From NCBI GenBank assembly GCA_949788275.1, contig OX460916.1, positions 2,418,001 to 2,482,000 of the forward strand: a DNA stretch of 64,000 nt, written 5' to 3'. The notes below the pieces were generated by a model, which worked only from the letters and a program-made list of their open reading frames with translations, was not told the origin of the DNA and searched no databases. This document shows positions 15,641 through 54,382 of this stretch, in pieces. Origin of the DNA: Weeksellaceae bacterium. Its GTDB lineage: Bacteria; Bacteroidota; Bacteroidia; Flavobacteriales; Weeksellaceae. How positions within the stretch are numbered: the stretch's first letter is position 1; each line of letters starts with the position of its first letter. A program made the translations under genes and the position numbers.

Positions 15641-15730
15641 CAGGGATTGAAGCGTTTGTTTGAGCTTTTTTGAGGCCATGAAGTGGCTTAAAAAAGCGAG
15701 TGCGGAAAGCCCGGTGCGTAGCAGCCGCCC
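15641..15730 (+). repeat. Dispersed structured intergenic repeat, copy A
   Basis: This is one of five related elements in the window and the most degenerate at its 5' end (GGATTGAAGCG instead of GGATAGnAGCG). The 3' end reads AGCCCGGTGCGTAGCAGCCG then CCC, with the small hairpin TGC-GTA-GCA at 15715-15723. Between the ends is a long stem: GCTTTTTT near 15664 pairs with AAAAAAGC near 15690. It lies downstream of infB, in the opposite orientation to that gene. The surrounding 15424-15821 region holds no gene. Confidence 0.75.
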
Positions 15731-15766
15731 AAAAGGAATGTTGCTATAAGTCGTTAAAAATAGGTC

Positions 15767-15799
15767 AAAAAAAAGCCCACTCAATTCCTTGAGTGGGCT
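15767..15799 (-). terminator. Terminator of rimP-nusA-infB
   Basis: Perfect 11-bp GC-rich stem (15774-15784 with 15789-15799), TTCC loop, followed on the - strand by eight T. It is 23 bases past the infB stop. Confidence 0.9.
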
Positions 15800-15821
15800 G
15801 TATAAAGTGCAATTGAATTGC

Positions 15822-18800
15822 TTATTTTAATTTTTTCTTCACCTCTACGGTTTCGAATGCTTCAATGATATCACCGATTTGGATATCGTTAAAGTTTTTA
15901 ATGTTTAAACCACATTCGTACCCTTTGGCTACTTCTTTCACGTCATCTTTGAAACGTTTTAATGAAGCTAACTCACCTTCGTGAATAACAACACCGTCGC
16001 GGATGATGCGAATTTTAGAAGAACGGTAAACTTTACCATCTAAGACCATACAACCTGCAATAGTCCCCACCTTAGAAACTTTAAATGTTTCACGGATTTC
16101 GATATTACCCGTTACTTGTTCTTTTAATTCTGGAGATAACATACCTTCCATTGCTTCTTTGATGTCGTTGATGGCATCATAGATAATTGAGTAAGTACGG
16201 ATTTCGATTTCTTCTTTGTCAGCGATTTCACGAGCAGAAACACCGGGTCTCACATTGAAACCAATGATGATTGCATCGGAAGCCGAGGCTAAAAGAACGT
16301 CGGATTCTGTAATTTGTCCAACTCCTTTATGAAGCATGTTTACATGGATTTCGTCGGTAGACAATTTCTGTAAAGAATCGGTTAATGCTTCTACAGAACC
16401 ATCCACATCTCCTTTTAAGATAATGTTTAACTCTTGGAAGTCACCTAAAGCGATACGACGACCAATCTCATCTAATGTAATATGTTTCTGTGTACGGATT
16501 GTTTGCTCACGTTGAAGTTGCTCTCTACGAGATGCAATTTGTTTTGCTTCGCGTTCGTCTTCGTACACTTTTAATTTATCACCGGCAGTAGGTGCGCCGT
16601 CAAGACCAAGGATAGTAACTGGTGTAGAAGGACGAGCCTCTAACACGTTTTTACCACGTTCATCTAACATTGCTCTTACTTTACCATGATGGCTACCTGC
16701 AAGCAAGTAATCGCCGATACGTAATGTACCGTTTTGAACCATGATGGTTGATACGTATCCACGTCCTTTATCTAAGGCAGCTTCAACCACTGTACCAGTT
16801 GCGTTACGGTTAGGGTTAGCTTTTAGGTCTAACACTTCCGCTTCTAATAATACTTTTTCTAAAAGTTCGTCAACACCTAAACCTGTTTTAGCAGAAATTT
16901 CTTGCGATTGGTAAGTACCACCCCAGTCTTCTACGAGTAAGTTCATTTGTGCTAATTGCTCTTTTACTTTTTCTGGAAGCGCGGTAGGCTTATCGACTTT
17001 GTTAATCGCAAAGATGATAGGAACACCGGCAGCTTGAGCGTGAGAAATTGCTTCACGTGTTTGAGGCATGATTTGATCATCGGCCGCGATAACGATAATA
17101 ACAATATCGGTTACTTGAGCTCCACGAGCACGCATAGCCGTAAAGGCCTCGTGACCAGGAGTATCTAAGAAGGCTACACGTTTACCATTGGCCAACGTTA
17201 CGTTGTAAGCACCAATATGTTGTGTAATACCACCCGACTCACCAGCGATGACGTTTGCTTTACGCACGTAATCTAATAAAGATGTTTTACCGTGATCGAC
17301 GTGTCCCATAACGGTTACGATTGGTGCACGGAATTCAAGGTCTTCTTCTTTATCGATTTCGTCTTCTTCAATTGATAAATCTTCTTCAGCACTAGAGAAA
17401 ACGACTTCGTATCCGAAATCATCAGCTACCAATTGAATGGTATCGGCTTCTAAACGTTGGTTCATGGTAACCATGATTCCTAAAGACATACATGCAGAGA
17501 TTACTTCTGTAACCATTACATCCATTAACGAAGCCAATTCATTCACGGTAACGAATTCGTTCACGTTTAATGTTTTGTCTTTGTCCATTGCTTCTTGCTC
17601 TAAATCGGCAATTTCACGACGTTCTTTACGTTTATCACGACGGTGCTTAGCTCCTTTAGCTCCCTTCCCTTTGTTGGTCAGTTTGTCTAAAGTATCTTTA
17701 ATTTGTTTTTTAACATCTTCATCACTCAATTCAGCTTGAGGGACGCGCGGTGCACCAGGGCGGTTGTTTCCAAAACGGTTCTGACCACCTGGGCGGTTAG
17801 GACCACCAGGACGGTTAGGACCACCTCCGGGACGGTTAGGACCACCACCAGGGCGATTCGGACCACCACCAGGACGGTTTACACCACCTTGTTGGGTACC
17901 AGCAGGACGGTTAGCGGCGGCATCACCTGGCTTAACATCTTCTGGTTTAACATTTTTCTGAATGCGTTTACGCTTCTTTTTGTCAGCAGCTTGGCTGATC
18001 TTTTGGGATTTTTTATCTTCGGCTTTCTTTTTATCTTTTTCGAAAATAGATAAATCAATTTTAGCACCCGTAAAATTCGGCCCATCTAGTTTTGTATAAA
18101 CTGTCTCAATCTTCTGAGTTTCAGCAGATACTTCTTCTATCTCTTCTTTCTTCACTTCAGGCTTAGCTTCTTCCTTTTTAATTTCAGGTTTTTTTACCTC
18201 TTTCGCCTTATGATCTTCTCCTTTCTTTTCTTCTTTTTTGGGAGAAGATTTTGGTGAAGCTTCCGGTTTAACAGACTCTTTTTCTTTCACTTTAGAATCT
18301 TTCTTCTTCTCCGATGGAGAATTTTCTTTTTTCGGTTTACCTGCTTTATTTATTTTATCAAGATCGACGGTTCCGATAACACGAGGATGTTGCGATTCAT
18401 CGGGTTTAATGATGATATCGTTGGTTTCCTTTTTGCTTTCGACCACTACAGGGACAACTGAAGGTTCAGTTGGCGCTGGTTCGTCTTGCTTCTTTTCTAT
18501 CTGAACTTCTGCTTTCACAGGTTGTTCTTGTGATTCCACTTCTGGTTTTTCAACTTTCTTTGGACCTTCTAATTCTATTTTTGTAGGTTTTATAACCTCT
18601 GGTTTGGCAGGTACTTCAGCAGCCTTTTCTTCGGCTTCTTTTTTCTCTTGTGCTTTAATATCAGAAATTTTATTAATCACTACTTCCCCGGAAGCTTGCT
18701 TTTGTTTGGCATCTGACCGGAATTCATTAACTAAAATATCATAAGTTGGCCGATCGATCTTAGAGTTGGGATTTTTCTCAATAGTTTCACCCTTTCCCTC

Positions 18801-18875
18801 TAAAAAATCAACAGCTCTATCCATCGATATATTTAATTCTTTTAATACTTTACTTAATCTTATTGTTTCCGGCAT
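15822..18875 (-). CDS. infB: Translation initiation factor IF-2
   Basis: This 1017-residue GTPase brings initiator tRNA to the 30S subunit. The N-terminal 500 residues are a charged low-complexity region rich in Lys, Glu and Pro with a short IF2-N segment at the start ([21 protein letters not shown]) and an Arg/Pro/Gly repeat near residues 330-375. The G domain follows with [12 protein letters not shown] (G1), DTPGHEAF (G3) and NKVDKP (G4), then domains II to IV. It is the last gene of rimP-nusA-infB but also has its own -7 box upstream, and it ends at a strong terminator. Confidence 0.98.
17752..17890 (-). repeat. Internal repeat coding for the IF-2 Arg/Pro/Gly linker
   Basis: Imperfect tandem units of about 18-24 bases encode repeated [15 protein letters not shown] in IF-2. 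Such linkers are common in IF-2 of Bacteroidota and vary in copy number. Confidence 0.8.
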
Positions 18876-18905
18876 ATGACAGCTAATCGTTTATTTTTAT
18901 TTTTG

Positions 18906-18913
18906 CAAATGTA
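18906..18913 (-). promoter_or_regulatory. Candidate internal -7 box of infB
   Basis: TACATTTG on the - strand in the 63-base nusA-infB gap, 30 bases before infB. Confidence 0.4.
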
Positions 18914-18938
18914 CTAATTGTTTGTGATTTGAAAGGTA

Positions 18939-20174
18939 TTAATCTTCAAACTCTTCTTTCAAGATGTTTATGACGTCTTGAATCGTCTCCTCTTCAAGGT
19001 CTGTTCTCTTGATTAAATCTTCCACATCCTGCTCTAAAATACTCTTTGCAGTATCTAGACCAATTTCCTTGAACGCTTGGATAACCCAAGAATCAATTTC
19101 ATCAGAAAACTCGGTCAATTCAACATCTTCATCTTGAACGCCTTCACGGAAAATATCAATTTCCATTCCAACTAACTTAGAAGCTAATCGAACATTATAC
19201 CCTCCTTTACCAATGGCTTTAGAAACCTCATCTGCATTGACATAAACCAAGGCTTTATTATCCTCTTCATTGATTTCAATTTTAGAGATTTTAGCAGGGT
19301 TTAAAGCACGAGAAATATAAAGGCTTTGGTTGTTGGTATAGTTAATCACATCGATGTTTTCGTTGCGTAATTCGCGAACGATTGAATGGATTCTTGATCC
19401 TTTCATTCCCACACAAGCTCCAACAGGATCGATACGATCATCGTATGATTCAACGGCTACTTTGGCTTTATCACCAGGGATACGGACCACGTTTTTAATG
19501 GTGATTAAACCATCAAAGATCTCTGGAATTTCTTGTTCGAATAATTTCTCCAAGAATTTAGGAGAAGTACGCGATAAGATAATTTGAGGTTTCGCCCCTT
19601 TCAGTTTCACATCGTCAACAACAGCGCGTAAGGTTTCACCTTTACGGAAGAAATCAGACGGGATTTGATTTTCTTTTGGAAGAATCATTTCATTTTGTTC
19701 ATCATCAACAATGATAACATGTTTGTGGCGTACATGGTGAATTTCACCGGTTACGATTTCCCCAACTAGTCCTTTAAATTTATCATAAAGGTTGGCGTTA
19801 TCGTATTCCATTACCTTAGATACTAAGGTTTGTCTTAACGTTAAAATAGCACGACGACCTAATGTTTCAATGGGAATTTTTTCAGTTACAGCCTCACCGA
19901 TTTCAAAATCAGGTTCGATTAAACGAGCTTCCGCCAGTTCAATTTCTGCACTATCATCTTCAGAGAATCCATCTTCCACAACAATACGGTTGTGCCAGAT
20001 CTCTAAATCTCCCTTATCCGGATTAACGATAATATCAAAGTTATCGTCTGATCCATATTTTTTACGAAGAACACTTTTTATGGCGTCTTCTAAGATTGCC
20101 ATTAGGGCAATACGGTCTATATTTTTATCGTCTTTAAAATCTCCAAAAGATTCAATTAATGCAAGATTGTCCAT
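18939..20174 (-). CDS. nusA: Transcription termination/antitermination factor NusA
   Basis: This 411-residue RNA-binding factor joins RNA polymerase and controls pausing, termination and antitermination. It has the NusA N-terminal domain (MDNLALIESFGDFKDD...), an S1 domain at about 135-200 and two KH domains (DPVGACVGMKGSRIHSI and YVNADEVSKAIGKGGYN). It lacks the two acidic repeats of the E. coli protein (495 residues), as in other Bacteroidota. It lies 12 bases after rimP in the conserved ribosome/transcription operon. Confidence 0.98.
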   Translation of the reverse strand: MDNLALIESFGDFKDDKNIDRIALMAILEDAIKSVLRKKYGSDDNFDIIVNPDKGDLEIWHNRIVVEDGFSEDDSAEIELAEARLIEPDFEIGEAVTEKIPIETLGRRAILTLRQTLVSKVMEYDNANLYDKFKGLVGEIVTGEIHHVRHKHVIIVDDEQNEMILPKENQIPSDFFRKGETLRAVVDDVKLKGAKPQIILSRTSPKFLEKLFEQEIPEIFDGLITIKNVVRIPGDKAKVAVESYDDRIDPVGACVGMKGSRIHSIVRELRNENIDVINYTNNQSLYISRALNPAKISKIEINEEDNKALVYVNADEVSKAIGKGGYNVRLASKLVGMEIDIFREGVQDEDVELTEFSDEIDSWVIQAFKEIGLDTAKSILEQDVEDLIKRTDLEEETIQDVINILKEEFED

Positions 20175-20186
20175 TACATTTTATTT

Positions 20187-20651
20187 TTAAAAGGTGACTT
20201 TGATAATTGCTTTTTTGATATCAGCGTAATTTACTAATTCTTGTTTCTCTACTGTTATATTCCCTTTACCTATTGGTTTAGGTTCACGGGCCTCCCAGAA
20301 AAGTTCAACACCTTCCTCGTCGGCCATAACAATTTCTCCTTCGATGACTTGGTTATCGGTTAAAGTCACTTCCAATGTGCGTCCGACATTTTTCGCAAAC
20401 TGTCTTGGCATGGTCAATGGGCTTCCAACACCTGGCGAAGAAACTTCCAACGCGAAATCAACTTCTTCACTGTCTAGGCTGTTTTCCACATATCGACTGA
20501 TACGAACCACTTCTTCGATGGAAAGACCTTCGTCTCCATCAACTGAAATTAAAATTTTGTCATCGGTTGAAATAGTCCAATCGATAAGAAACAATGACGG
20601 ATTCACCGCCAACGCTTCGTCTATTAATGTTTTTACTTTATTAGAATCCAT
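20187..20651 (-). CDS. rimP: Ribosome maturation factor RimP
   Basis: This 154-residue protein is needed for 30S subunit maturation. The N-terminal domain has the conserved LEVSSPGVGSPLTMPRQFAKNVGR segment, split here as LEVSSPGVGSPL and MPRQF, near residues 68-90. The C-terminal part is an SH3-like Sm fold. It is the first gene of rimP-nusA-infB, with a -7 box 62 bases upstream. Confidence 0.96.
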   Translation of the reverse strand: MDSNKVKTLIDEALAVNPSLFLIDWTISTDDKILISVDGDEGLSIEEVVRISRYVENSLDSEEVDFALEVSSPGVGSPLTMPRQFAKNVGRTLEVTLTDNQVIEGEIVMADEEGVELFWEAREPKPIGKGNITVEKQELVNYADIKKAIIKVTF

Positions 20652-20712
20652 ACAGAACGAAAAAGAGAGCTATAGCCAGCCCTCCTCCATTTTAGTTTTA
20701 TTAAATTCTTTG

Positions 20713-20720
20713 CAAAATTA
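20713..20720 (-). promoter_or_regulatory. Candidate -7 box of rimP-nusA-infB
   Basis: TAATTTTG on the - strand, 61 bases before rimP. Confidence 0.5.
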
Positions 20721-20767
20721 CAAAATATTATTTAATATGCCTAATGTAGAATCCTTTAATATTGTTA

Positions 20768-21247
20768 TTACATTAAATTCCACACAAACACACCGATAAA
20801 AAACAAGGTGAGGATTACATCATAGCCCGTGGTTAAAATAAATCCGACAAAAGACCCTAAGGCGGCTTTGAAAGCTGCTTTAGGCTGTTGAGAATTAGCC
20901 CATAATTCGGCGAGAAAAGCGCCGATAAATGGCCCGATTAAAAAACCGACCGGCGGAAAAAAAATTCCGACGATTAAACCAATAATCGATCCCCATACGG
21001 CATACTTGCTTCCGCCAAGCTTTTTCGTCATGTAGATGGGGAGTAAATAATCTAAAATAGCGCCGATCATAACCAAAACACCCGCTATAATAATTAATCC
21101 CCAACCATAGTCAGCCACACTGCTAAACTTAAAGACAACCAAGCCTGCTAAAGCTAAAGGTGCCCCAGGGAGGACGGGTAAAATTGTTCCAATCAATCCG
21201 ATCAGTAATAGAATTCCGCTAATAATGGCTAGCGTAGAATCGTCCAT
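20768..21247 (-). CDS. DUF456 family membrane protein
   Basis: This 159-residue protein has about four to five hydrophobic segments and the DUF456 pattern: LIGLIGTILPVLPGAPLALA at about residues 17-36, then glycine-rich helices GLIVGIFFPPVGFLIGPFIGAFLAEL. The function of the family is not known. It is monocistronic and divergent from the mechanosensitive channel gene, sharing a 67-base promoter region. Confidence 0.9.
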   Translation of the reverse strand: MDDSTLAIISGILLLIGLIGTILPVLPGAPLALAGLVVFKFSSVADYGWGLIIIAGVLVMIGAILDYLLPIYMTKKLGGSKYAVWGSIIGLIVGIFFPPVGFLIGPFIGAFLAELWANSQQPKAAFKAALGSFVGFILTTGYDVILTLFFIGVFVWNLM

Positions 21248-21285
21248 ATTTTTGGGTTTTTAATCAATTATTAAACAACAAGCAG

Positions 21286-21293
21286 TACATTTG
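21286..21293 (+). promoter_or_regulatory. Candidate -7 box TACATTTG
   Basis: TAnnTTTG match 21 bases before the ATG at 21315. The TTG at 21291 belongs to the box, so it is unlikely to be the start codon. Confidence 0.5.
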
Positions 21294-21314
21294 TCTAGAC
21301 AATGTATAACCACT

Positions 21315-22604
21315 ATGATGAAGTTTCTACTGCAAGATAAATCTTTTTATGAAGAATTTGCGGATGGCGTAAAGATATTTTTCCACAGTAAATTACAAAT
21401 TAATTTATCCGAAAGTCTATTCACCACCCTGGAATTAATTTCTTGGGTAGGCATCTTACTCGTCATTGACTATATCTTACGTGCTGCCATTTTTCCGGTT
21501 TTGCGCAAAGGGGTGAAAATAACCCAAAGCGAATGGGGCGAAGCGCTGTATCGCCATAAAGTTTTTATGGCTGCATTGCATTTAATTCCCTTGGGGTTTG
21601 CGTCGAATATGAATCCGATTCTTTTCTTAAAAGATCCCAGTTTATTTTACCTCGTAAATAAAGCCACACAACTACTGTATATTATTGTTTTTACCCAATT
21701 GGTTTTCCGTTTGGTTAATACAACCCTCAGCATGTATAGTCAAGAAAATAGTTATACCACCGTAGGTATACGGACTTTTGGCCAAATGTTGAAGTTTATT
21801 ATTGCCTTTTTCGCCCTCTTAAGTGGGATTATGGTTCTATTTACGGTAAACACCAACACCATTATTACCGTATTAGGGGCATTAACCGCAGCAGTTTTAT
21901 TAATTTTCCGGGATGCCATCTTTGGTTTTGTCTCTGGCTTACAGATCTCTTATTCTCGAATTGTAAAAATTGGCGATTGGATTACCATATCGAAGGGGGA
22001 TATCGAAGGAATTGTTCGGGAGATCAACATCAACTTGGTGAAAATTGAAAAATTTGACAAAACCATTGCTACTGTTCCTACCGTTGATTTAGTTTCGTCT
22101 CAGGTGACCAATCATATGGCAATGCTCGCCACTGGAACCCGCCAAATAAAAAGAGGGATCTCCTTTAATGTTAATTCATTTCGGTTTTGTGATGAAGAGC
22201 TCTTAAACCGGTTTGAAAACATCTTATTAATTAAAGACTATATTCATCAGAAACGCATTGAGATTGGTCAATACAATGAATCTATTTCATTGGGAGAAAT
22301 CGACATCAACGGAAGACAACTAACCAATATTGGGGTATTTAGGATTTATGTACAACATTATCTAGCTAAGCAAAAATTAATTTCGAAGATAGACCCTATT
22401 ATTGTCAAACAATTATCGGTGACCACCCAAGGCATGCCTTTGGAGATTTCATGTTTCGTGAATGTAACCACCAACCAGGACTACGAAGCGATACAAGCCG
22501 ACATCTTCGATCACTTATTAACGGCCTGCCGCAAATTTGATTTAGAGATTATGCAGGCCATTACCCTTTCCGATTTACATTATTCAAATTCAATAAAATC
22601 ATGA
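21315..22604 (+). CDS. Mechanosensitive ion channel family protein (MscS/YbdG type)
   Basis: This protein of about 429 residues has several N-terminal membrane helices, then the pore-lining helix and beta domain of MscS: LGALTAAVLLIFRDAIFGFVSGLQISYSRIVKIGDWI, of which the FRDAIFGFVSG part marks the pore-to-beta junction near residue 210. It probably opens during osmotic downshift. The C-terminal cytoplasmic domain is longer than in E. coli MscS (286 residues), as in YbdG. The ATG at 21315 is preferred to a TTG at 21291 inside the promoter box. The stop overlaps pdxJ by ATGA. Confidence 0.9.
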   Translation: MMKFLLQDKSFYEEFADGVKIFFHSKLQINLSESLFTTLELISWVGILLVIDYILRAAIFPVLRKGVKITQSEWGEALYRHKVFMAALHLIPLGFASNMNPILFLKDPSLFYLVNKATQLLYIIVFTQLVFRLVNTTLSMYSQENSYTTVGIRTFGQMLKFIIAFFALLSGIMVLFTVNTNTIITVLGALTAAVLLIFRDAIFGFVSGLQISYSRIVKIGDWITISKGDIEGIVREININLVKIEKFDKTIATVPTVDLVSSQVTNHMAMLATGTRQIKRGISFNVNSFRFCDEELLNRFENILLIKDYIHQKRIEIGQYNESISLGEIDINGRQLTNIGVFRIYVQHYLAKQKLISKIDPIIVKQLSVTTQGMPLEISCFVNVTTNQDYEAIQADIFDHLLTACRKFDLEIMQAITLSDLHYSNSIKS

Positions 22605-23326
22605 CTAAATTAAGTGTTAATATAAATAAACTAGCCACAATTCGTAATGCAAGAGGTGGCGTAACACCTAATCTTGTAGAGGCTGCTATTAAAATTCAGG
22701 GCTTTGGAGGGCAAGGAATAACGGTTCATCCAAGACCCGACGAGCGTCATATTCGGTATCGAGATGTGTATGATTTAAAACCAGTGGTCACCGAAGAGTT
22801 TAACATTGAAGGAAATCCCGTTCAAAAATTCATGGATTTAGTCCTTGATATTTGTCCAGCCCAAGTGACATTGGTTCCTGATGCTGATGATGCCATTACA
22901 TCGAACGCAGGCTGGGATACGGTAAAGCACTTGGATTACCTAACCGATATTATTGCTGAATTTAAACGCGCAGGAATTCGTACCTCTATCTTTCTCGATC
23001 CCAATCCGGCATTGGTAGAAGCAGCAGCCAAAACAGGTGCCGATCGCATTGAATTATACACCGAGTTATTTGCTTCGGAATATGAAAAAGGAAATCTGAC
23101 GGCTATTACACCTTATAAAGAAACGGCCCGTGTAGCAACAGCCAATGGATTGGTGTTGAATGCTGGTCACGATTTAAGCTTAGATAACATCCAGTACTTC
23201 ATTCAAGAAATTCCAGAAATAGCCGAGGTATCTATTGGCCATGCGTTAATTTCGGAAGCCTTGTACTTGGGATTAGAGAATACCATTCAGGCCTATTTAC
23301 GTAAAATAGAACTAGCTCAATTATAA
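22601..23326 (+). CDS. pdxJ: Pyridoxine 5'-phosphate synthase
   Basis: This 241-residue TIM-barrel enzyme condenses 1-deoxyxylulose 5-phosphate with 3-amino-2-oxopropyl phosphate to pyridoxine 5'-phosphate, the last ring-forming step of vitamin B6 synthesis. Characteristic segments are LSVNINKLATIRNARGG at the N-terminus, ITVHPRPDERHIRYRDV (residues 39-55) and LNAGHDLSLDN with SIGHALISEAL near the C-terminus. It overlaps the mscS-type gene by four bases and is five bases from the esterase gene, so the three are co-transcribed. Confidence 0.97.
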   Translation: MTKLSVNINKLATIRNARGGVTPNLVEAAIKIQGFGGQGITVHPRPDERHIRYRDVYDLKPVVTEEFNIEGNPVQKFMDLVLDICPAQVTLVPDADDAITSNAGWDTVKHLDYLTDIIAEFKRAGIRTSIFLDPNPALVEAAAKTGADRIELYTELFASEYEKGNLTAITPYKETARVATANGLVLNAGHDLSLDNIQYFIQEIPEIAEVSIGHALISEALYLGLENTIQAYLRKIELAQL

Positions 23327-23331
23327 AAACG

Positions 23332-24102: not shown

Positions 24103-24326
24103 AAGTTCAATTTTAGATCTTAGATAAATACAGATGTAAGATTGTATAGAAGCTTATTTTATACCATCTTACATCTATTGATATAGACTAGGCCCACTTC
24201 ATTCTAGGGTGCATTTACACTTTAAATGCGGTTTAAAGTAAAGGATTCGATTGAGTCCACGTCGTTTTGCTATAACCTATCATCCCATGTCTATTGACAT
24301 ATAGACTAATAAAAAACGTTTTTGAA
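24103..24326. other. Structured convergent intergenic region
   Basis: No gene is visible. It has an imperfect 17-bp inverted repeat (24132-24148 with 24160-24176, one mismatch), an 8-bp hairpin (24219-24226 with 24232-24239), and a near-identical direct repeat: TCTATTGATATAGACTA at 24174-24190 and TCTATTGACATATAGACTA at 24290-24308. The first hairpin may act as a terminator but has no T run. Confidence 0.6.
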
Positions 24327-28066: not shown

Positions 28067-28173
28067 GGGCGGCCGCTTCGCGCCAGGCTATACGCTCTAT
28101 CTTTGCTGCAAGAACGTTTCGGTTTGTGGAAAATTGAGGTGGCAGCAAAGGATGCCGCTGCTATCCTTGCCGC
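28067..28173 (-). repeat. Dispersed structured intergenic repeat, copy B
   Basis: Read on the - strand: GGATAGCAGCGGCATCC (28150-28166, with GGAT/ATCC able to pair), then TTTGCTGC (28142-28149 complement) pairing with GCAGCAAA (28102-28109 complement), then GATAGAGCGTATAGCCTGG and the mini-hairpin CGC-GAA-GCG (28074-28082) before GGCCGCCC. It lies downstream of the TolC-type gene, in the same orientation. Confidence 0.8.
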
Positions 28174-28175
28174 AG

Positions 28176-28224
28176 AACCCTTTCCGATAAAATGTTCTCA
28201 AAGAACATTTTATCGGAAAGGGTT
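28176..28224. repeat. Perfect 23-bp inverted repeat with 3-base loop
   Basis: Bases 28176-28198 are the exact reverse complement of 28202-28224; the loop is CAA. It abuts repeat copy B. There is no long T run on either side, so it is not a typical terminator. Confidence 0.85.
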
Positions 28225-28432: not shown

Positions 28433-28544
28433 GCGCCAGGGATAGAAGTGGAAATCCTTGACAACATTCGCGATGTTCATTTGGAATCTGTTTTTTCATT
28501 GCCAAGATTGGGAACGGATAGCCCGACCCGTTAGGGTGGCGCCC
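28433..28544 (+). repeat. Dispersed structured intergenic repeat, copy C
   Basis: GGATAGAAGTGGAAATCC at 28440-28457 (GGAT/ATCC stem), a long variable middle, then GGATAGCCCGACCCGTTAGG with the mini-hairpin CCC-GTTA-GGG at 28527-28536 and GGCGCCC at the end. Opposite orientation to copy B. The rest of the 610-base gap 28012-28621 holds no gene that I can see. Confidence 0.7.
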
Positions 28545-44581: not shown

Positions 44582-44778
44582 TGTTTCGTATTTTTTTCGC
44601 TTTCTTCAACTTCGAAATCAAGTGGTGATTCTTCCAGTGTCTTATAAAAGCCTTTCGGTTTTTTAAAGACACTGTAAAACATGACGACAAAAAAAGTCAA
44701 CATTGCTATAAGAGTCACGGTCTGTAAGACACTTGAAAATTCGTAACCTGAAAAAAATTCTTTATAATATTTTAACAT
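44578..44778 (-). CDS. ccoQ: CcoQ-like small subunit
   Basis: The 66-residue product has one membrane helix (SSVLQTVTLIAMLTFFVVMFYSVF, about residues 15-38) and a charged tail, as in CcoQ/FixQ. It stabilises the cbb3 complex in other bacteria. It overlaps the ccoNO stop by one base and the ccoP start by four, so translation is coupled. Confidence 0.85.
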   Translation of the reverse strand: MLKYYKEFFSGYEFSSVLQTVTLIAMLTFFVVMFYSVFKKPKGFYKTLEESPLDFEVEESEKNTKQ

Positions 44779-47054: not shown

Positions 47055-47218
47055 TATGAGTCGATTTTATCTTTTATTTTTTTGTCATCCTTTAACATTC
47101 GAACTGCGGGAGATTCATCATCATCAAATTGGCCTTTTTTATATCCGATAAAAAAGAACAGCAAAAAAATTGCTCCGAGCGAAACGCTCACCATAATCAT
47201 CAATAATAATATTCCCAT
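47054..47218 (-). CDS. ccoS: cbb3 oxidase maturation protein CcoS
   Basis: This 54-residue protein has one membrane helix (GILLLMIMVSVSLGAIFLLF) followed by GYKKGQFDDDESPAVRML, the CcoS/FixS signature. It is needed for heme or copper insertion into CcoN in other bacteria. I place the start at the ATG at 47218; an extension to 47314 would add a cysteine-containing stretch not seen in the family. The gap to ccoI is short. Confidence 0.88.
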   Translation of the reverse strand: MGILLLMIMVSVSLGAIFLLFFFIGYKKGQFDDDESPAVRMLKDDKKIKDKIDS

Positions 47219-47298
47219 AGCTTTTACAAAATTACAAAGCTGAGACTTCATATCACAATGATTTTGGTCACAGCTCATTTTATTCTGCCAATTTAAAA

Positions 47299-49692
47299 TC
47301 ATTCTAAATTCCACTTTGTGCGATAATCCATCCAGCGGGTACTAATTGTGGCAAATAACAAGACCGAAATTGAACTAATCGGCATTAAAATAGCAGCAAC
47401 AACAGGCTGTAAATATCCAGAAACGGCAAAGGACAAACCAACAATATTATAGAGAAAACTAATTGCGAAAGCGATCTTCACTAAGCGCATAGAACGGGTA
47501 GAAAGTTTTAAAAATAATGGAATTGCTTTAAAGTTTCGCGCATCTAAAATTCCGTCGCACGAAGGCGAAAAACTATTCATATCGTCTGATATAGAGACCC
47601 CAACTGTACTTTGCTTTAATGCACCCGCATCATTTAACCCATCGCCAAGCATTAATACTTTTCGATTTTGATCTTCCAATGATTTCACATAATTCAATTT
47701 ATCGCTGGGCGATTGATTAAATTGCAGTGAAGCTCCCATGGGGAAAATGGTGGTTAAAAATGGTTTTTCCGAATCATTATCACCCGACAAAATATGAAGT
47801 TGATAATTTCCTAATTCCTTTAACATTTCATCGAGCCCTTTTCGGTATCGATTGTTATAAACATATTTCCCAAAGACATTTCCGTCGATAGAAATATATA
47901 CTTCTGTTTGATTTATGGATGATTTACCCTCCGCATCGACAAAACTTCGCGATCCCACCTTCACTAATTGACCATTTACGACACCTTGTTGTCCTTTTCC
48001 TACAAATTCTTGATAGTTGCTAACAGGGGCTATACTTTCCGTTTTTATTTTTTTATACAACGCTCTGCTTAAAGGGTGGTTAGAGTTGTGCAACACCGAC
48101 CGTATAAGCAATTGTTCTTCGCTCCTTAAAGCTTTACCCTCATAAGCGATTTGAGCATCATCGCTTTCCGTGATGGTTCCTGTTTTATCAAAAACAACAT
48201 CTGTAATTTTGGCTAAATTTTCAATGGTCGCAGTATTCTTAACATACAGTCGTTTGTTTCCAAAAATACGCATCATATTTCCCAAAATAAATGGCGATGA
48301 GAGTCCTAAGGCACACGGGCAAGCGATAATTAAGATAGCCGTAACCACTTCCAAGACTTTAGAACTATCGTAATATGCCCAGAAAAGAGCAGATAGGCCA
48401 GCGATAATTAAGATGACAATGGTAAAGTAATGACTGATGTAATTGGTTAATGCATTCAGTTCTGATTCTTCCTTTTTAAAGGCATCATTGTTCCATAATT
48501 GGGTTAAATAACTCTGGTTGACTTCTGAAATAATTTCTAATTCAATCGCATTACCCGATTGTTTTCCACCAGCAAAGATTTTATCGCCTGTTTTTTTAGA
48601 AATCAAACGAGATTCACCGGTTACAAAAGAATTATCGATCATGGCGTCGCCTTTCATTAAAATGGCATCCGCAGGGATTAATTCTTCGTTACGTATTAGA
48701 ATTCGATCCCCTTTCTGAAGTTCTGATAACAGGATTGGCATTTCTATACCTGCCTCTAAACGGGCCACTGCAATAGGATAGAATGATTTATAATCTCGAT
48801 CGAAGGCCAAAGACTGCATGGTTTGTTGCTGGAACCACTTACCGGTTAACATTAAAAACAATAGCATGGCCAAGGTATCGAAATAACCTGGTGACAAATC
48901 GAAAATGATATCATAGGTCGATTTGAAGAAGATTACAAAAATCCCTAAAGCGATAGGCACGTCGATGTTGATGTACTTATTTTTAATTCCTTGCCATGCC
49001 GAATGAAAATAGTCGGTTGAAGAATAGAAAAACACTGGTAGTGATAGGGCAAACATGGCCCAACGGAAATACCCTTTATTATCTTCTAGCCACTGTTCTT
49101 TTACACTTCCAAATACTTCGACGTATTCGGGAAAGGAGAGCAGCATAATATTTCCAAAGCAAAAGCCAGCAACCACAAGTTTACTAACCAGGGATCGGTC
49201 TACTTTTTTCGTTTGTTTTTTATCGATTGATTTTAAATTGATCGATGGTTTATAGCCTAAGTTCGTCATTAAACGGGCTAAATCGCCTAGTTTTATTTCT
49301 TCTTGGCGAAAAGTAACTTGCACTGTTTTTTGGGTAAAGTTAACATGGGAAGCCATAATCGCAGGATTAATGGTTTCCAAACTTTCTAACAACCATACAC
49401 AGGATGTACAATGCATTACGGGTACGTAAAAACTAACCACCGTAACGCCATCGTCGGAAAAGTCGACGACTTCATTAAAAATCTCAGCCGTGTTTAAAAA
49501 ATCAAACTGATGTACACTCTTTTCATCGGGTCGTACACCGGCATTTCGATTAAGTTCATAAAAGTCTTTGAGATCGTTGGTATTCAAAATCTCATAAACC
49601 GTTTTACAGCCCTGACAACAGAACTCTTTTTGATCGAAAATAATTTTTTCTTCTTCAACCAATTGTCCACAATGAAAACAATTCTCTCCCAT
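47299..49692 (-). CDS. ccoI: Copper-type P1B ATPase CcoI
   Basis: This 797-residue heavy-metal P-type ATPase supplies copper for cbb3 oxidase assembly. An N-terminal cysteine-rich region (CFHCG, residues 5-9; CCQGC, 25-29) precedes an HMA domain with Cys95/Cys98 in MHCTSCVW. The membrane CPC motif is at 458-460, the phosphorylated Asp in DKTGT at 502-506, and GDGLNDAGAL marks the P domain. The DUF-type N-terminus is typical of CcoI/FixI. It is the first gene of the cbb3 operon, with a -7 box 10 bases upstream. Confidence 0.95.
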   Translation of the reverse strand: MGENCFHCGQLVEEEKIIFDQKEFCCQGCKTVYEILNTNDLKDFYELNRNAGVRPDEKSVHQFDFLNTAEIFNEVVDFSDDGVTVVSFYVPVMHCTSCVWLLESLETINPAIMASHVNFTQKTVQVTFRQEEIKLGDLARLMTNLGYKPSINLKSIDKKQTKKVDRSLVSKLVVAGFCFGNIMLLSFPEYVEVFGSVKEQWLEDNKGYFRWAMFALSLPVFFYSSTDYFHSAWQGIKNKYINIDVPIALGIFVIFFKSTYDIIFDLSPGYFDTLAMLLFLMLTGKWFQQQTMQSLAFDRDYKSFYPIAVARLEAGIEMPILLSELQKGDRILIRNEELIPADAILMKGDAMIDNSFVTGESRLISKKTGDKIFAGGKQSGNAIELEIISEVNQSYLTQLWNNDAFKKEESELNALTNYISHYFTIVILIIAGLSALFWAYYDSSKVLEVVTAILIIACPCALGLSSPFILGNMMRIFGNKRLYVKNTATIENLAKITDVVFDKTGTITESDDAQIAYEGKALRSEEQLLIRSVLHNSNHPLSRALYKKIKTESIAPVSNYQEFVGKGQQGVVNGQLVKVGSRSFVDAEGKSSINQTEVYISIDGNVFGKYVYNNRYRKGLDEMLKELGNYQLHILSGDNDSEKPFLTTIFPMGASLQFNQSPSDKLNYVKSLEDQNRKVLMLGDGLNDAGALKQSTVGVSISDDMNSFSPSCDGILDARNFKAIPLFLKLSTRSMRLVKIAFAISFLYNIVGLSFAVSGYLQPVVAAILMPISSISVLLFATISTRWMDYRTKWNLE

Positions 49693-49701
49693 ATTCTTTT
49701 A

Positions 49702-49709
49702 CAAAATTA
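49702..49709 (-). promoter_or_regulatory. Candidate -7 box of the cbb3 operon
   Basis: TAATTTTG on the - strand, nine bases before the ccoI ATG, so the leader would be very short. Confidence 0.4.
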
Positions 49710-49733
49710 CTTTCCTTTTATCAGAATAAACGT

Positions 49734-49741
49734 TAACTTTG
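49734..49741 (+). promoter_or_regulatory. Candidate -7 box of the Crp/Fnr gene
   Basis: TAACTTTG (TAnnTTTG), 26 bases before the ATG at 49768 and directly followed by a palindrome. Confidence 0.55.
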
Positions 49742-49757
49742 TATGACTTAAGTCATA
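49742..49757. promoter_or_regulatory. Perfect 16-bp palindrome between Crp/Fnr gene and cbb3 operon
   Basis: TATGACTTAAGTCATA is an unbroken palindrome right after the -7 box of the Crp/Fnr gene. Its half-site ATGAC shares the TGA core of Crp/Fnr sites. From this position it could repress its own gene and, lying about 50 bases upstream of the ccoI start site, act on the oxidase operon. This is inference. Confidence 0.55.
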
Positions 49758-49767
49758 ACAAGAAGCT

Positions 49768-50475
49768 ATGTCAGAATATAATGATAATGTGAAGACAATC
49801 AAAGAATTGTTCGAGAATCCTGAATCTTTAGGTGTGTTTAGCAAAGAAGAGATTTTAGAGTTTGAACAGGAGAAAAGAGTCTTAACATTGAAGAAAGGCG
49901 AGGAGATTATTCAAGAGGGTGCCACCCCAAAAGGGATTTACTGCTTGATGAAGGGAACGGCAAAGCTGTTTAAAATTGGATTTAACGGGAAAGAGCAAAT
50001 TTTACGATTTGCAAATGAAGGCGATATCATTGGATATCGATCGATCTTAAGTCAAGAAGTTTTCGGGGCTTCGGCAACGGTAATGACTCCTTGTGAGATT
50101 TTCTATATTCCAGAGAAGTTCTTTATAAAACTACTGGAAGTGAACCCTAAATTAGCCTTTAACATTTTACAGCGCATTGCTAGAGACCTAGGCGAGTATG
50201 CCCGTGCAATTACTTACTTGGCTCAAAAAACTGTTCGCGAGCGCTTAGCAGAAGTTCTTCTTTTATTGGAAGGGAAGTTAGGGACTGATAAAGATGGCTT
50301 TATTCACATTTCTTTAACCAGAGAAGAAATGGCCAACTTAATTGGAACTGCAACGGAATCTGCTATTCGATTAATTTCGGAGTTCAAAACCGATGAGTTA
50401 ATTGAAGTAGAAGGACGAAGAATTAAAATTCTGGATCATCAGAAATTGACCAAATTAGGGCATGTTATTTTATAG
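49768..50475 (+). CDS. Crp/Fnr-family transcriptional regulator
   Basis: This 235-residue regulator has a cyclic-nucleotide-binding-like beta roll (about 30-140; KKGEEIIQEGATPKGIYCLM), a dimer helix, and a winged HTH near 180-205 (SLTREEMANLIGTATESAIR). The recognition helix keeps the Glu and Arg of E. coli FNR (VETISR) as TESAIR but has Ile in place of Ser. The N-terminal cysteines that bind the FNR iron-sulphur cluster are absent, so it does not sense oxygen in that way. Divergence from the cbb3 operon suggests control of microaerobic respiration. Confidence 0.93.
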   Translation: MSEYNDNVKTIKELFENPESLGVFSKEEILEFEQEKRVLTLKKGEEIIQEGATPKGIYCLMKGTAKLFKIGFNGKEQILRFANEGDIIGYRSILSQEVFGASATVMTPCEIFYIPEKFFIKLLEVNPKLAFNILQRIARDLGEYARAITYLAQKTVRERLAEVLLLLEGKLGTDKDGFIHISLTREEMANLIGTATESAIRLISEFKTDELIEVEGRRIKILDHQKLTKLGHVIL

Positions 50476-50523
50476 CAGCATTGAATTTTAATTAAAGCCC
50501 TTATTTTCAATTTTATAGGATTT

Positions 50524-50597
50524 GCAGCAGGGATAGAAGCGGCATCCTTTGCGACTAGCAAAGATAGAGCCTATAGCCCGGCGCGTAGCGGCTGCCC
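50524..50597 (+). repeat. Dispersed structured intergenic repeat, copy D (shortest)
   Basis: The compact form of the element: GGATAGAAGCGGCATCC (50531-50547), stem TTTGC (50548-50552) with GCAAA (50558-50562) closed by GACTA, GATAGAGCCTATAGCCCGG, mini-hairpin CGC-GTA-GCG (50582-50590), then GCTGCCC. It lies 49 bases after the Crp/Fnr stop, in the same orientation, and 58 bases before a terminator, so it would be in that transcript's 3' end. The rest of 50476-50783 holds no gene. Confidence 0.85.
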
Positions 50598-50654
50598 TAA
50601 AAAACAATATAGAAATAAACGTTTTATCTTCCGAAAGAAGATTTAACGCAATTC

Positions 50655-50684
50655 AAAGTCTGGACAGAGTTCGGACTTTTTTAT
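50655..50684 (+). terminator. Terminator downstream of Crp/Fnr gene and repeat D
   Basis: Eleven-pair stem (50655-50665 with 50669-50679, two G-T pairs), AGA loop, T-rich tail. Confidence 0.75.
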
Positions 50685-50783
50685 TTTTAGGGTTTTAGTT
50701 TTTGACGAATGGCATTTGTGCATTGACCAACGGTATATAAGAATGAATGATTTTGCGTATTTTTACTGTTAAATTTATGCGAA

Positions 50784-51788
50784 GTGAAAGATCACTTAAT
50801 CCGTTATTACAACACTTTTGTAGGCCTTCTTTGGCTATTACTTTTTTTTACTTTGTGGGGCCAATTTATCTTTAATTCGGAGGAAGCTCCAGGGATTTCT
50901 TTTGTCGTTTCGTTGGTATTTATTGGAATTTGCTTTGCTTTTGTCACTTTCACCAGCCGATTTTTATTGCCAAAAGCTATTGGTAAACTTAAAATTAAAC
51001 GGTTTATTGTACAAGCGCTTATCTTGGCGATGTTTCTTGCGTTAATCAATGCTTTTTTTCTGGCGAAGTTTTCACCCACGGAATACCCGAATGCAAAAAC
51101 CGATTTTTCTTACTATTTATTTAGCTTAGTACCAACGTCTTTTATGTTGATGATTGGTTTTTGTGGTTTAGAGGTTTTTAGAATTTACATGGTCCAACAG
51201 CGAATTCATTTGGAAGAAAAGTTACGATTTTTACAAAATCAGATGAATCCCCATATTATGTTTAACGTGCTCAATCACATTCATATTTTAATGAATAGAG
51301 ACGTTGAACTGGCATCGGATTTACTGTTGCAGTTTTCAGGGATACTTCGCTATCAACTCTATGAGTGCAATCAAGAACGAGTTCGTTTAGGGAAAGAAAT
51401 TCAGTACCTGAAAGATATTGCCGAAGTGGAGCATATTCGATGGGGAAATGAGTTGGAGGTTTGTTTTACGGAGCTCATTGAAGACCCAACGAAAACTATT
51501 CGTCCACTATTACTCATTACTTTTATAGAAAACGCCTTTAAGCACGTAGACCGCCTTCCAATGCAACAGAGTTTTGTGCATATAAAAATTGAACAGAAAG
51601 CGAATTTACTCACGTTAGAGGTAAAAAACTCGACAACCGATTACCCCGTTAGAAAAAGCGAAAGTTCGGGACTTGGCTTAGACAACACCATTAAACGCTT
51701 AGAAATGATGTATCCCGATAAGCATCAGTTAAAAATAAATAAGGATGCTTTATGGTATAGCGTCACATTAACCATCGATCTTAATTAA
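50784..51788 (+). CDS. LytS/YehU-type sensor histidine kinase
   Basis: This 334-residue kinase has four membrane helices (about 10-30, 38-60, 72-95, 108-130) and no large sensory domain. The cytoplasmic His_kinase domain has the phospho-accepting His157 in QNQMNPHIMFNVLNHIH and an N box in ITFIENAFKH; the G box is in SSGLGLDNTIKRLEMMY. It starts at GTG 50784; the nearby ATG at 50777 is in another frame. The response regulator gene follows after one base, forming a two-component pair. The signal is unknown. Confidence 0.92.
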   Translation: MKDHLIRYYNTFVGLLWLLLFFTLWGQFIFNSEEAPGISFVVSLVFIGICFAFVTFTSRFLLPKAIGKLKIKRFIVQALILAMFLALINAFFLAKFSPTEYPNAKTDFSYYLFSLVPTSFMLMIGFCGLEVFRIYMVQQRIHLEEKLRFLQNQMNPHIMFNVLNHIHILMNRDVELASDLLLQFSGILRYQLYECNQERVRLGKEIQYLKDIAEVEHIRWGNELEVCFTELIEDPTKTIRPLLLITFIENAFKHVDRLPMQQSFVHIKIEQKANLLTLEVKNSTTDYPVRKSESSGLGLDNTIKRLEMMYPDKHQLKINKDALWYSVTLTIDLN

Positions 51789-51789
51789 T

Positions 51790-52521
51790 ATGCAGTTGAC
51801 TCCTATTTTAAAATGTCTTGTAGTGGACGATGAACCAATCGCCATAGAAGGGATCATTGATTTTATTGCTAAAGTTGATTTTTTAGAATTTACCCATCGT
51901 TGTTCATCAGCCTTACAAATTGAAGAAATTCTGAAAACAGAAACCATTGATTTAATGTTTTTAGACATTAATATGCCGTATTTATCGGGATTAGAGTTTC
52001 TAGAAACGGTAAAAAACCCGCCTATAACCATTATTACAACCGCTTATTCTGAATATGCTTTAGAGGGGTATCGTTTACAGGTGGAAGATTACTTACTAAA
52101 ACCCATTGCTTTTAATCGGTTTTATCAGGCTGTTAATAAGGCTTTTAATACATTTAAATTGAATGAACCCAATACACCAAGCATTTTACCTGAAGATGAT
52201 TTTGTTTATATACGGCAGACCGATGGTTTTGAGAAGATTGATTTAAAAAAACTGCGCTATATAGAGTCCATGCAAAATTATGCGGTTTTTCATTTTGCAG
52301 ATAAGAAGAAAATTGTTCATCAGACTATGATTTCTTTAGAAGAAATTCTACCGAAGACTATTTTTTTTAGGGTGCATAAATCCTATATTATTAATTTAAA
52401 TCACATTGAGTCAATTCAGGGATTTCAAGTGCTTATGCAAGGAATTAGAATTCCTATTTCGCGCACAAAAAAAGACGAACTGCTTCATCATGTCGTCTAT
52501 CAAAAACTAATTAGTAAATAA
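51790..52521 (+). CDS. LytTR-type response regulator
   Basis: This 243-residue regulator has a receiver domain with Asp59 in MFLDINMPYLSG, Asp13/Asp14 in VVDDE and Lys in YLLKPI, followed by a LytTR DNA-binding domain (about 135-240; FVYIRQTDGFEKIDL ... FFRVHKSYIINLNHIESI). It pairs with the upstream kinase. Its targets are not known; the outer-membrane protein genes beyond its 3' end are possible. Confidence 0.94.
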   Translation: MQLTPILKCLVVDDEPIAIEGIIDFIAKVDFLEFTHRCSSALQIEEILKTETIDLMFLDINMPYLSGLEFLETVKNPPITIITTAYSEYALEGYRLQVEDYLLKPIAFNRFYQAVNKAFNTFKLNEPNTPSILPEDDFVYIRQTDGFEKIDLKKLRYIESMQNYAVFHFADKKKIVHQTMISLEEILPKTIFFRVHKSYIINLNHIESIQGFQVLMQGIRIPISRTKKDELLHHVVYQKLISK

Positions 52522-52568
52522 AATAAAAGCCAAGACGAACTTGACTTTTACACTTTAACTACAACAGA

Positions 52569-53183
52569 TTAAAACTGGTATCCTAGACCTAGGATAAAGA
52601 AATTTGCACGATTATCATAACGTAACTCGGTATTGGTTACTTTGTTTATAAACGAACGCTGATCTTTTGAAAAGGCACTTTCGTAACGCGCGTTAATTAA
52701 TAACTTCGATAATTTAACATTAGCTCCCAATTGATACCCCAAAGAAAAACCGTCTTTACCGCTTTCGATAAAATCATTAAAACGACCATCTTTTTCAATA
52801 TTAAATGAGGCTACTGGTCCTACAAATGCACTTACCATATTACCTAAGAACTGGTAACCAACCATGACAGGAATATCGATACGATTACTTTTGGCATCAA
52901 TATCGACCCCGTCTATGGTCACTGAATTTTTAAAGTGGGTATAGTATAATTCGGGCATTACAAATAAGTCGGTCACAGGTAATTCTATGCGGGCTCCAAG
53001 ACCAACATTATACCCAACAGAATTATCACCTTTTGTTTTAAACGCTTCGGTGGCCGACCCTTTCAATTCTTTCCAAGAAGCCGATTTTGCGTTAAACAAT
53101 ACATTCGCTTTTGCTTCTACATTAATTTGAGCTTGGGTGATACTTGCCCCAGCAATAACAAGTAATAAGATTAATTTTTTCAT
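52569..53183 (-). CDS. Outer-membrane beta-barrel protein (porin-like)
   Basis: This 204-residue protein has a signal peptide (MKKLILLLVIAGASITQAQ) and repeated amphipathic strands, ending with the aromatic terminus NFFILGLGYQF that is typical for barrel insertion. It fits the OmpA/PorT-size 8-strand barrels. The ATG at 53183 starts the signal peptide; an extension to 53231 adds an unrelated stretch. No specific substrate can be given. It lies 22 bases after the DUF6268-like gene. Confidence 0.85.
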   Translation of the reverse strand: MKKLILLLVIAGASITQAQINVEAKANVLFNAKSASWKELKGSATEAFKTKGDNSVGYNVGLGARIELPVTDLFVMPELYYTHFKNSVTIDGVDIDAKSNRIDIPVMVGYQFLGNMVSAFVGPVASFNIEKDGRFNDFIESGKDGFSLGYQLGANVKLSKLLINARYESAFSKDQRSFINKVTNTELRYDNRANFFILGLGYQF

Positions 53184-53205
53184 GAGATTATATAAATTTA
53201 TTGTT

Positions 53206-54108
53206 TTAAAAATTATACTTAAAACCAACATTCAACAACAACGAAGGTTGGAAATATGAGTTGGGTTTATCGTCTTCGGAAAACGATTTAAACAGGGTTT
53301 TTAATGATCTTTCTTGCACCTCTGCCGACCGCATCCAAGTAGCGCCCGCACCAAAATGAAAAATAGCCTTTTTTCCTAAATTGAATTCTGGGCTTAAAAA
53401 AGAGCGCAGCGAATTAGATCCAAAAATCATGGATGTATCATCCACTTTAATCACCGAAGTTATTCCATCCATTTCAAAAGCCACTAAACGAAGCTTTAAA
53501 AAATCGGTAAATTTAACCGATGCAGCTAATTCAACCGAATTCATCATGGTTGCACTAATTTCATACATACCATCTTTCTTCCACTTTAAATAAACCATGG
53601 GCATAACCATAGGAACCCCAAAAGCATTCGAAACACCAGCCCCAATTCCTACATCAAAATTTTCGAGCCAATGATAAATGAAAACCGCCCCACCACTAGC
53701 CAAAATAGCATCAGCACTCAGCTGATCGGGATCAGCATACAAACCAACGCCAGCAGAGGCCAGCAAAGACCAACGATCACTAATTGGACGCAAATACAAC
53801 CCTGCAACATTGGCGTTAATAACTTCATCAGGGAAATTTCGATCAGCTAAATCTTTATGATTAAACTTCGCATAAGCCCCCGACAGATTAATGGCCCACA
53901 TAGTTATTTGCTTATTGGCATGCTGCTTTACATAAAGAGGAACAAGTACACCCATTTGAGCTTTTAACATATCCCCTTTTCCATCAACTTTCTCGCCATT
54001 CTTATCTACATAATGCGAAGTACTCGTATAGTCGGTTTTAAAATAATTTTGCGCACTATTCTTTGTGTAAACAAGTAAGAAAAGCAGCCCTAAGATGAAT
54101 CGTTGCAT
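53206..54108 (-). CDS. DUF6268-like outer-membrane protein
   Basis: This 300-residue exported protein has a signal peptide (MQRFILGLLFLLVYTKNSAQ) and a beta-barrel pattern, with the C-terminal LLLNVGFKYNF typical of outer-membrane proteins. It resembles the DUF6268 family seen in Bacteroidota, whose role is unknown. The ATG at 54108 begins the signal peptide. A -7 box (TACTTTTG) lies 29 bases upstream. It is followed closely by another barrel gene. Confidence 0.75.
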   Translation of the reverse strand: MQRFILGLLFLLVYTKNSAQNYFKTDYTSTSHYVDKNGEKVDGKGDMLKAQMGVLVPLYVKQHANKQITMWAINLSGAYAKFNHKDLADRNFPDEVINANVAGLYLRPISDRWSLLASAGVGLYADPDQLSADAILASGGAVFIYHWLENFDVGIGAGVSNAFGVPMVMPMVYLKWKKDGMYEISATMMNSVELAASVKFTDFLKLRLVAFEMDGITSVIKVDDTSMIFGSNSLRSFLSPEFNLGKKAIFHFGAGATWMRSAEVQERSLKTLFKSFSEDDKPNSYFQPSLLLNVGFKYNF

Positions 54109-54137
54109 AATGTGTTCTTTAAATAAATAATTGAACA

Positions 54138-54145
54138 CAAAAGTA
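54138..54145 (-). promoter_or_regulatory. Candidate -7 box of the two barrel genes
   Basis: TACTTTTG on the - strand, 29 bases before the ATG at 54108. Confidence 0.45.
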
Positions 54146-54262
54146 CACGGAGTCCTTTTCTAGGCTAAATTTTATTGACGTACTGCACCTGGGTTATGAT
54201 ATATGGAAAATACGCCTTTGATATCGAATTGAAACAAGACGATAAATTCATAGACTATGGTT

Positions 54263-54382
54263 GGGCGCCTCCCTACGGGCCAGGCTATTCGCTAAATCTT
54301 TGTAGGCTTATAGATTTGGAGATGGCATTCGCCAAGAAAATCCCAGTAGGCCTACAAAGGATATCGCTGCTATCCTTGGCGC
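54263..54382 (-). repeat. Dispersed structured intergenic repeat, copy E
   Basis: On the - strand: GGATAGCAGCGATATCC (54359-54375), stem TTTGTAGGC (54350-54358 complement) with GCCTACAAA (54299-54307 complement), GCGAATAGCCTGG, mini-hairpin CCC-GTA-GGG (54271-54279), then AGGCGCCC. It is downstream of the barrel gene at 54411 in the same orientation. An open frame across it (54175-54414) is not a gene. Confidence 0.8.

Follow-up and report, generated by a model that had tools for sequence, protein, structure and literature searches.

A stretch of 64,000 nucleotides from the genome of a Weeksellaceae bacterium (GCA_949788275.1, contig OX460916.1, positions 2,418,001 to 2,482,000; referred to here as the window) carries five dispersed intergenic repeats, copies A to E, built around covarying hairpins. 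The locus raises the question of what these repeats are, and whether their structure is kept as RNA or as DNA. On the strength of sequence and model matches they are a variant of Flavo-1 (Rfam RF01705), a known family, listed there as a small RNA (sRNA) and proposed by Weinberg et al. 2010 (PMC2864571); a preliminary description of the window, which knew no named family for them, was wrong on this point. We consider that the five copies probably represent a high-copy, interspersed Flavo-1 variant which forms a three-way junction and acts as DNA, resembling repetitive extragenic palindromic (REP) elements and folding as single-stranded DNA (ssDNA). The family itself is known; what is new is the variant carrying stems P1 and P3 with interchangeable modules, its DNA-like signature and its role as a landing site for IS110 insertion sequences (IS), and literature searches covering openly accessible papers, supplements excluded, found no publication with these points.

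Five Flavo-1 copies in the window

The positions and strands first given for the five copies were borne out. In the list below, P1 is the terminal stem, P3 a mini-hairpin and T1 to T3 are types of inner stem; bit scores are those of the Rfam Flavo-1 model.

Copy A, 15637..15730, + strand: type T3; P1 15637-15641 with 15724-15728; P3 TGC-GTA-GCA at 15715-15723; not found by Rfam at E<=0.1
Copy B, 28067..28173, - strand: type T1, 44.6 bits; P1 28169-28173 with 28069-28073; P3 CGC-GAA-GCG at 28074-28082
Copy C, 28433..28544, + strand: type T2, 44.8 bits; P1 28433-28437 with 28538-28542; P3 ACCC-GTTA-GGGT at 28526-28537; in the same gap as B
Copy D, 50524..50597, + strand: type T1 with a short apex, 41.7 bits; P1 50524-50528 with 50591-50595; P3 CGC-GTA-GCG at 50582-50590
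Copy E, 54263..54382, - strand: type T1 with a long apex, 46.6 bits; P1 54378-54382 with 54265-54269; P3 CCC-GTA-GGG at 54271-54279

The Rfam gathering score of 42 bits is reached by E, C and B, and D is 0.3 bits short of it; 141 of the 150 genome matches listed reach it as well. A model built from 34 copies of the source genome, A to E among them (R1), recovers all five window copies and also finds A-type copies outside its 34 members.

Architecture and covariation

The 34-copy alignment revealed a common architecture, made up of a 5-bp terminal stem (P1), a hairpin of irregular shape whose internal loops are conserved and whose apex varies (P2), and the mini-hairpin P3, which is mostly 3-4 bp long and reaches 13-16 bp in seven parsed copies. 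P1 had been missed both by the preliminary description and by the Rfam model, and in copy A it starts 4 bases upstream of the start first given. It reads GCGGC/GCCGC in A and B, GCGCC/GGCGC in C and E, and GCAGC/GCTGC in D; eight variants were seen (GCGGC, GCGCC, GCAGC, GCGTT, GCGCT, GCGGT, GCAGT and GCGCA), and for each there are copies with the complementary arm. The unit extends from P1 arm to P1 arm plus CC(C). At least three inner modules of P2 share one outer frame: T1 in B, D and E, T2 in C and T3 in A.

Two-sided changes were observed in 19 of the 26 pairs of this alignment, 95.8% of whose cells pair, and the covariation score was 0.392, compared with 0.127 for shuffled and at most 0.112 for slid partners. 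The covarying hairpins noticed at first thus stand far above both controls, and all three elements are backed by covariation: P1, P3 and the irregular hairpin P2 with its exchangeable inner modules. DNA minimum-energy folds of A, D and E show P1, the base of P2 and P3, and RNA folding z-scores lie between -1.9 and 0.0; since folding energies are unexceptional, the structural case rests on covariation.

A hairpin pairing GGAT with ATCC, as first proposed, was rejected. In this genome the first G of GGAT varies with a partner in AGCC instead (5 of 8 departures compensated) and, judged by eye, ATCC stays constant while that G varies. Elsewhere, a fourth inner module, GTGAAAAGCCC...GGACTTGCAACG, occupies the same outer frame at L177:153-240 (L-numbers are labels of the DNA stretches examined), and in L164, L175 and L188 the P2 apex of Flavo-1 copies holds another palindromic repeat ending GGGTGACA, as if one repeat sat inside another.

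Copy number, spread and borders

A search of the genome for further copies, which the preliminary description had proposed, was carried out on 864 kb of sampled sequence, or 26% of the genome (the window and 40 systematic stretches ending at 2.165 Mb). R1 found 75 copies, which extrapolates to ~290 genome-wide. Two T3 copies seen by motif (L063:12222 and L079:7832) were missed by R1, and because some T3 copies escape the model, ~290 is an underestimate. The Rfam model gave at least 150 matches in the source genome against 4-22 in each of 13 congeners (89 candidates scored per genome); three more distant genomes had 84, at least 89 and at least 89. The 150 best Rfam matches are evenly spaced along the chromosome, and Flavo-1 occupies ~0.9% of the genome. 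An exact motif was present in named genomes that include Flavobacterium, Chryseobacterium, Polaribacter, Pedobacter, Cyclobacterium and a Chitinophaga metagenome-assembled genome, and among 118 genomes drawn evenly from the phylum, the source included, 17 had a match at E<=0.001.

The sites are lineage-specific. The gap that holds B and C is conserved yet free of copies in 12 of the 12 congeners that show both flanking genes; in the thirteenth the locus is cut by a contig end ~400 bases upstream. Past the orthologue of the gene preceding D, 13 of 13 congeners lack a copy, which is weaker evidence since the following gene differs there. At three unrelated sites (L074:9159, L090:16357 and L093:2222), T3 copies are 93.8-95.8% identical, agreeing from P1 to P1 plus CCC and diverging outside; a pair in L080, 97% identical, has common flanks and could have arisen by duplication.

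No target-site duplication was detected, the direct repeats at the borders matching those of shuffled pairs in 66 of the 75 copies (the borders of the other nine could not be parsed). The right-hand flank is rich in A (0.83, 0.80 and 0.71 at +1 to +3) and poor in T, and the left-hand flank is rich in T. An intrinsic terminator was rejected, as no T-tract follows the hairpin and this flank polarity is wrong for one. Plasmids gave no match to two query copies and phages none to one query copy; one exact pattern occurred in 8 stretches in viral contigs compared with at least 120 stretches in bacterial contigs. A half-element search for an autonomous parent was too noisy, and none was recognised.

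Gene context and orientation

Gene context was taken from a simple caller of open reading frames (ORFs) of at least 100 aa. The copies are almost always intergenic and take no account of the direction of transcription; convergent gaps are favoured and divergent ones avoided. Only one of the 75 lies within a called ORF and two at ORF edges, and of the 72 copies with genes called to left and right, 24 are in convergent gaps (0.168 of the intergenic bases) and 6 in divergent ones (0.231). Codirectional gaps have 18 sense and 24 antisense copies in this genome and 23 and 22 in the named genomes, that is 41 sense against 46 antisense when pooled (p 0.67). In the window all five gaps are codirectional, with B, D and E sense and A and C antisense. 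The earlier statement that all five copies follow the 3' end of a gene, never a divergent promoter, is correct for these five. Because their gaps are codirectional, each copy also precedes the start of another gene, and 6 of the 72 sampled copies are in divergent gaps.

In three Flavobacterium species (L174, L187 and L192), Flavo-1 lies immediately ahead of the same gene or runs across its called start; we take the gene to be prephenate dehydrogenase. The apex stems differ, which suggests an old retained site. Adjoining copy B, the window carries an inverted repeat (28176-28224) whose 23-bp arms match perfectly around a 3-nt loop; it is perhaps a terminator or a separate palindrome.

Pairing and loop signature

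In 167 of 189 copies (22 could not be parsed), three variable pairs at the P2 base gave 484 Watson-Crick pairs of all four types, 2 G-T, 5 A-C and 10 others. In 20 tRNAs of the sampled genomes, the acceptor and T stems, with the 3' offset chosen for best pairing, gave 216 Watson-Crick, 23 G-T and 0 A-C pairs, and the G-T contents differ with a Fisher p of 6e-10. A similar scarcity was found in A1 (A1, A3 and A4 are labels of sequence sets, A3 and A4 being from other genomes), with 5 G-T and 6 A-C among 782 cells. P3 forms a hairpin in 68 of the 75 copies of this genome. All triloops (51/51) are GNA and 10 loops are longer; four-base loops are GNYA in 5/7 and GNRA in 0/7. PMC4686876 describes DNA mini-hairpins that have GNA or GNNA loops and G-C pairs as extraordinarily stable; loop type served Weinberg et al. 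2010 in the opposite direction, in their argument that another motif is RNA. Random orientation, the scarcity of G-T pairs relative to tRNA and the GNA triloops together favour DNA over RNA.

IS110 insertions

The genome has 13 DEDD_Tnp_IS110 matches belonging to two elements, IS-b with 8 copies of 1337 bp and IS-a with 5 copies of 1377 bp by the borders chosen; both recombinases carry DEDD_Tnp_IS110 and Transposase_20 domains. Every one of the 13 lies within a Flavo-1 copy, at one of two fixed points. IS-b is inserted after GCGGCAGGGAT in 8/8 cases, in T1, T2 and T3 copies alike, and IS-a after the ATAG of ATAGCCC in 5/5. Two IS110 elements, in other words, use Flavo-1 as their landing site.

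In the 222-nt leader of IS-b, a 12-bp stem encloses GCTTCTATCC, complementary to GGATAGAAGC, and GCAGGGAT. Placed on two sides of one hairpin, GCTTCTATCC and GCAGGGAT represent both target halves across the IS-b insertion point, and 0/4000 base shuffles reach both match lengths; the predicted minimum-energy fold pairs these putative guides partly together. IS-a has one 8-nt match, equalled by 33/300 shuffles and suggestive at most. In congener G004, which has 14 IS110 matches, nine loci were examined and showed no Flavo-1 match, and no relative of the IS110 recombinase was confirmed in the named genomes, a search from which a query's own genome may be left out. Tandem 7-bp repeats of the TTAAACC type were seen near Flavo-1 or IS110 at L075:8034-8153 and in the flank of the IS110 copy L099:9655-11011.

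Preferred explanation

The REP-like option was one of several that the preliminary description had named, and it is supported by the ~290 dispersed copies, the lineage-specific sites and the random orientation. If Flavo-1 does act as DNA, the folded single strand, on the strand with the GNA loops, would be the form recognised by an enzyme acting in trans, which would copy or paste the repeat without target-site duplication. HUH enzymes are thought to act in this manner on REPs, and do so on the ends of IS200/IS605 elements. Since the repeat would offer an abundant, harmless target, IS110 elements may then have matched their bridge RNA to it, in parallel with IS621 and the REPs of E. coli.

Several observations weigh against this explanation. 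The enzyme that it calls for was looked for and not found. The minimum-energy folds of B and C depart from the consensus, the opposite strand folds likewise for D (only D among the five copies), and DNA folding z-scores are modest on both strands, from -1.9 to +0.7. Outside the source genome the loop signature is less uniform: under a stricter P3 filter, which covered 38/75 copies of this genome, 13/28 in A3 and 22/86 in A4, GNA was read in 1/1 parsed triloops of A3 and in 5/9 of A4, the other four reading TTG. The scarcity of G-T pairs could reflect protein contact on an RNA, and several Flavo-1 matches in F. psychrophilum are reported to coincide with transcribed 5' regions (PMC9723704). No significant strand bias was seen between the chromosome halves (84 of the 150 best matches, p 0.16; the origin was not located), and several Flavobacterium copies have the same neighbouring genes in more than one species, a hint of retention and perhaps of a function. 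Finally, the presence of Y1 transposases follows Flavo-1 richness across genomes, a point that belongs to the first of the alternatives.

Alternative explanations

Under this first alternative, Flavo-1 is an element of the REP type, mobilised in trans by a Y1 transposase (REP-associated tyrosine transposase, RAYT, or TnpA-REP) which does not adjoin it. In 40 genomes, a Y1 match was present in 6/6 with at least 24 Flavo-1 matches, 9/19 with 4-22 and 2/15 with none. Flavo-1-free genomes also tend to be smaller, however, and 10/25 Flavo-1 genomes have no Y1 match. Around Y1 genes of the source and related genomes, Flavo-1 was found within ~1.5 kb of 0/30 loci (R1, E<=0.01; one weak match at E 0.046), and the Rfam model placed it near 1/15 (L335). 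Repeats do occur beside Y1 genes. Those of L331 and L333 encode proteins 66% and 49% identical to the L111 protein, which has a YIHQNP motif; the L331 gene is flanked by CCCGATAGCGCGGATTTGCAATCCGTG repeats, which contain CCCGATAG, and the L333 gene by a relative without CCCGATAG. The string CCCGATAG also opens many class II copies, as we call the classic Flavo-1 copies sorted by eye. At E<=0.001, however, the source genome holds no relative of the L111 protein.

The link to TnpA-REP raised in the preliminary description was checked in the source genome, where the single Y1 match lies in an array of a different palindrome. It is a 155-aa transposase (DHIH, YILNQEIHH) within a dense array of GCCCC...GGGG palindromes (L031, G000 718685-722029); by eye it resembles subclass 1.2 of PMC6006769, for which the table of that paper reports no REP. 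The search for a mobilising enzyme found none: among 586 neighbour ORFs, in clusters present in at least three loci, no transposase or recombinase except IS110 was recognised by eye from the first residues. Movement by a distant Y1 enzyme is the leading alternative, and in our judgement an unlikely one.

A second alternative takes the family as Rfam does, as a functional RNA, either an sRNA or an element of 3' untranslated regions (UTRs) whose fold is selected in the transcript. The strong covariation, the depletion in divergent gaps and the transcribed matches of F. psychrophilum are consistent with it; moreover, the family was found with RNA models, and the table of Weinberg et al. 2010 grades it 'y' for RNA and 'n' for cis-regulatory (PMC2864571). 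Yet codirectional gaps of this and other genomes hold sense and antisense copies equally often, G-T pairs do not outnumber A-C pairs as they do in tRNA, and the P3 loops found here are of the GNA type or, when four bases long, GNYA in five of seven cases and GNRA in none. The ~290 copies lie beside varied genes, and PMC9723704 describes the F. psychrophilum matches as indistinctly sense or antisense, with many outside transcribed regions. Both the 3'-UTR and the sRNA options of the preliminary description are disfavoured by the random orientation, the near-absence of G-T pairs and the DNA-type loops, and we regard this alternative as improbable.

Copying via RNA by a reverse transcriptase, as in a short interspersed nuclear element (SINE)-like repeat with an A-rich 3' tail, would fit the A-rich right flank and the preference for gene 3' ends; the genome is AT-rich anyway (GC 0.363), and the near-absent G-T pairs and the DNA-type loops again argue against a passage through RNA, leaving this as a quite improbable origin. 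A miniature inverted-repeat transposable element (MITE), that is an internally deleted derivative of a DDE transposon, would be short, structured, dispersed and high-copy like Flavo-1, but the repeats lack a target-site duplication (border match lengths equal those of shuffled pairs), have terminal complementarity of ~5 bp only and show no recurrent transposase beside them apart from the IS110 inserts, so that this option of the preliminary description is very unlikely indeed.

Our preferred explanation, a DNA element folding as ssDNA, can tentatively be extended from the five copies to the family. Flavo-1 would then possibly be a phylum-wide set of mobile, ssDNA-folding three-way-junction repeats rather than RNAs, built from interchangeable modules, spread by a putative RAYT-independent enzyme and adopted by IS110 bridge RNAs. 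In a review, Flavo-1 is named as one of the most abundant sRNA families of bacteria (PMC9029176). If the family is a DNA repeat, the sRNA listing and many genome annotations are misleading, a family supported by covariation becomes an example of DNA-level structure passing as RNA, and the question arises which enzyme spreads it. Flavo-1 also offers natural target sites for direct tests of IS110 bridge-RNA pairing.

Comparison with known systems

The closest known system is Flavo-1 as modelled in RF01705, with which the window copies share the irregular hairpin, the GAT/AGC frame and the paired internal loops, B, C and E scoring above the gathering score. They differ in that the Rfam model stops within P3 (in the four alignments shown), leaving P1 outside, in that inner modules T1, T2 and T3 alternate here, with the T3 copy A unmatched, and in that the Rfam type is sRNA, whereas the present evidence favours DNA. 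Classic class II copies have AGC/GCT near their ends and are mostly without P3, unlike the window copies. In broad description, Flavo-1 may also be likened to bcr1, ERIC and RUP, which are dispersed, structured bacterial DNA repeats of ~100 bp.

With REPs, and with the REP doublets (REPINs) associated with RAYTs, Flavo-1 shares a high copy number, intergenic position, palindromic structure, the lack of a visible target-site duplication and its use as a target by the IS110 family. REPs are defined in PMC3733652 as palindromes of 20-40 nt with a GTAG or CGTC tag at one end. Flavo-1 is instead mostly a three-way junction of 73-127 nt starting GCGnn, with no tagged palindrome of that kind, and a RAYT adjoins it in none of the 30 loci by R1 and in one of 15 by Rfam.

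The IS110 insertions recall IS621, a member of the same family which targets E. coli REPs (PMC11208160). In both systems an IS110-family recombinase, with predicted guides that match a repeated palindromic target, inserts at a fixed point. The elements and the host are different here, the target is Flavo-1, and two distinct IS110 elements use two points of one stem.

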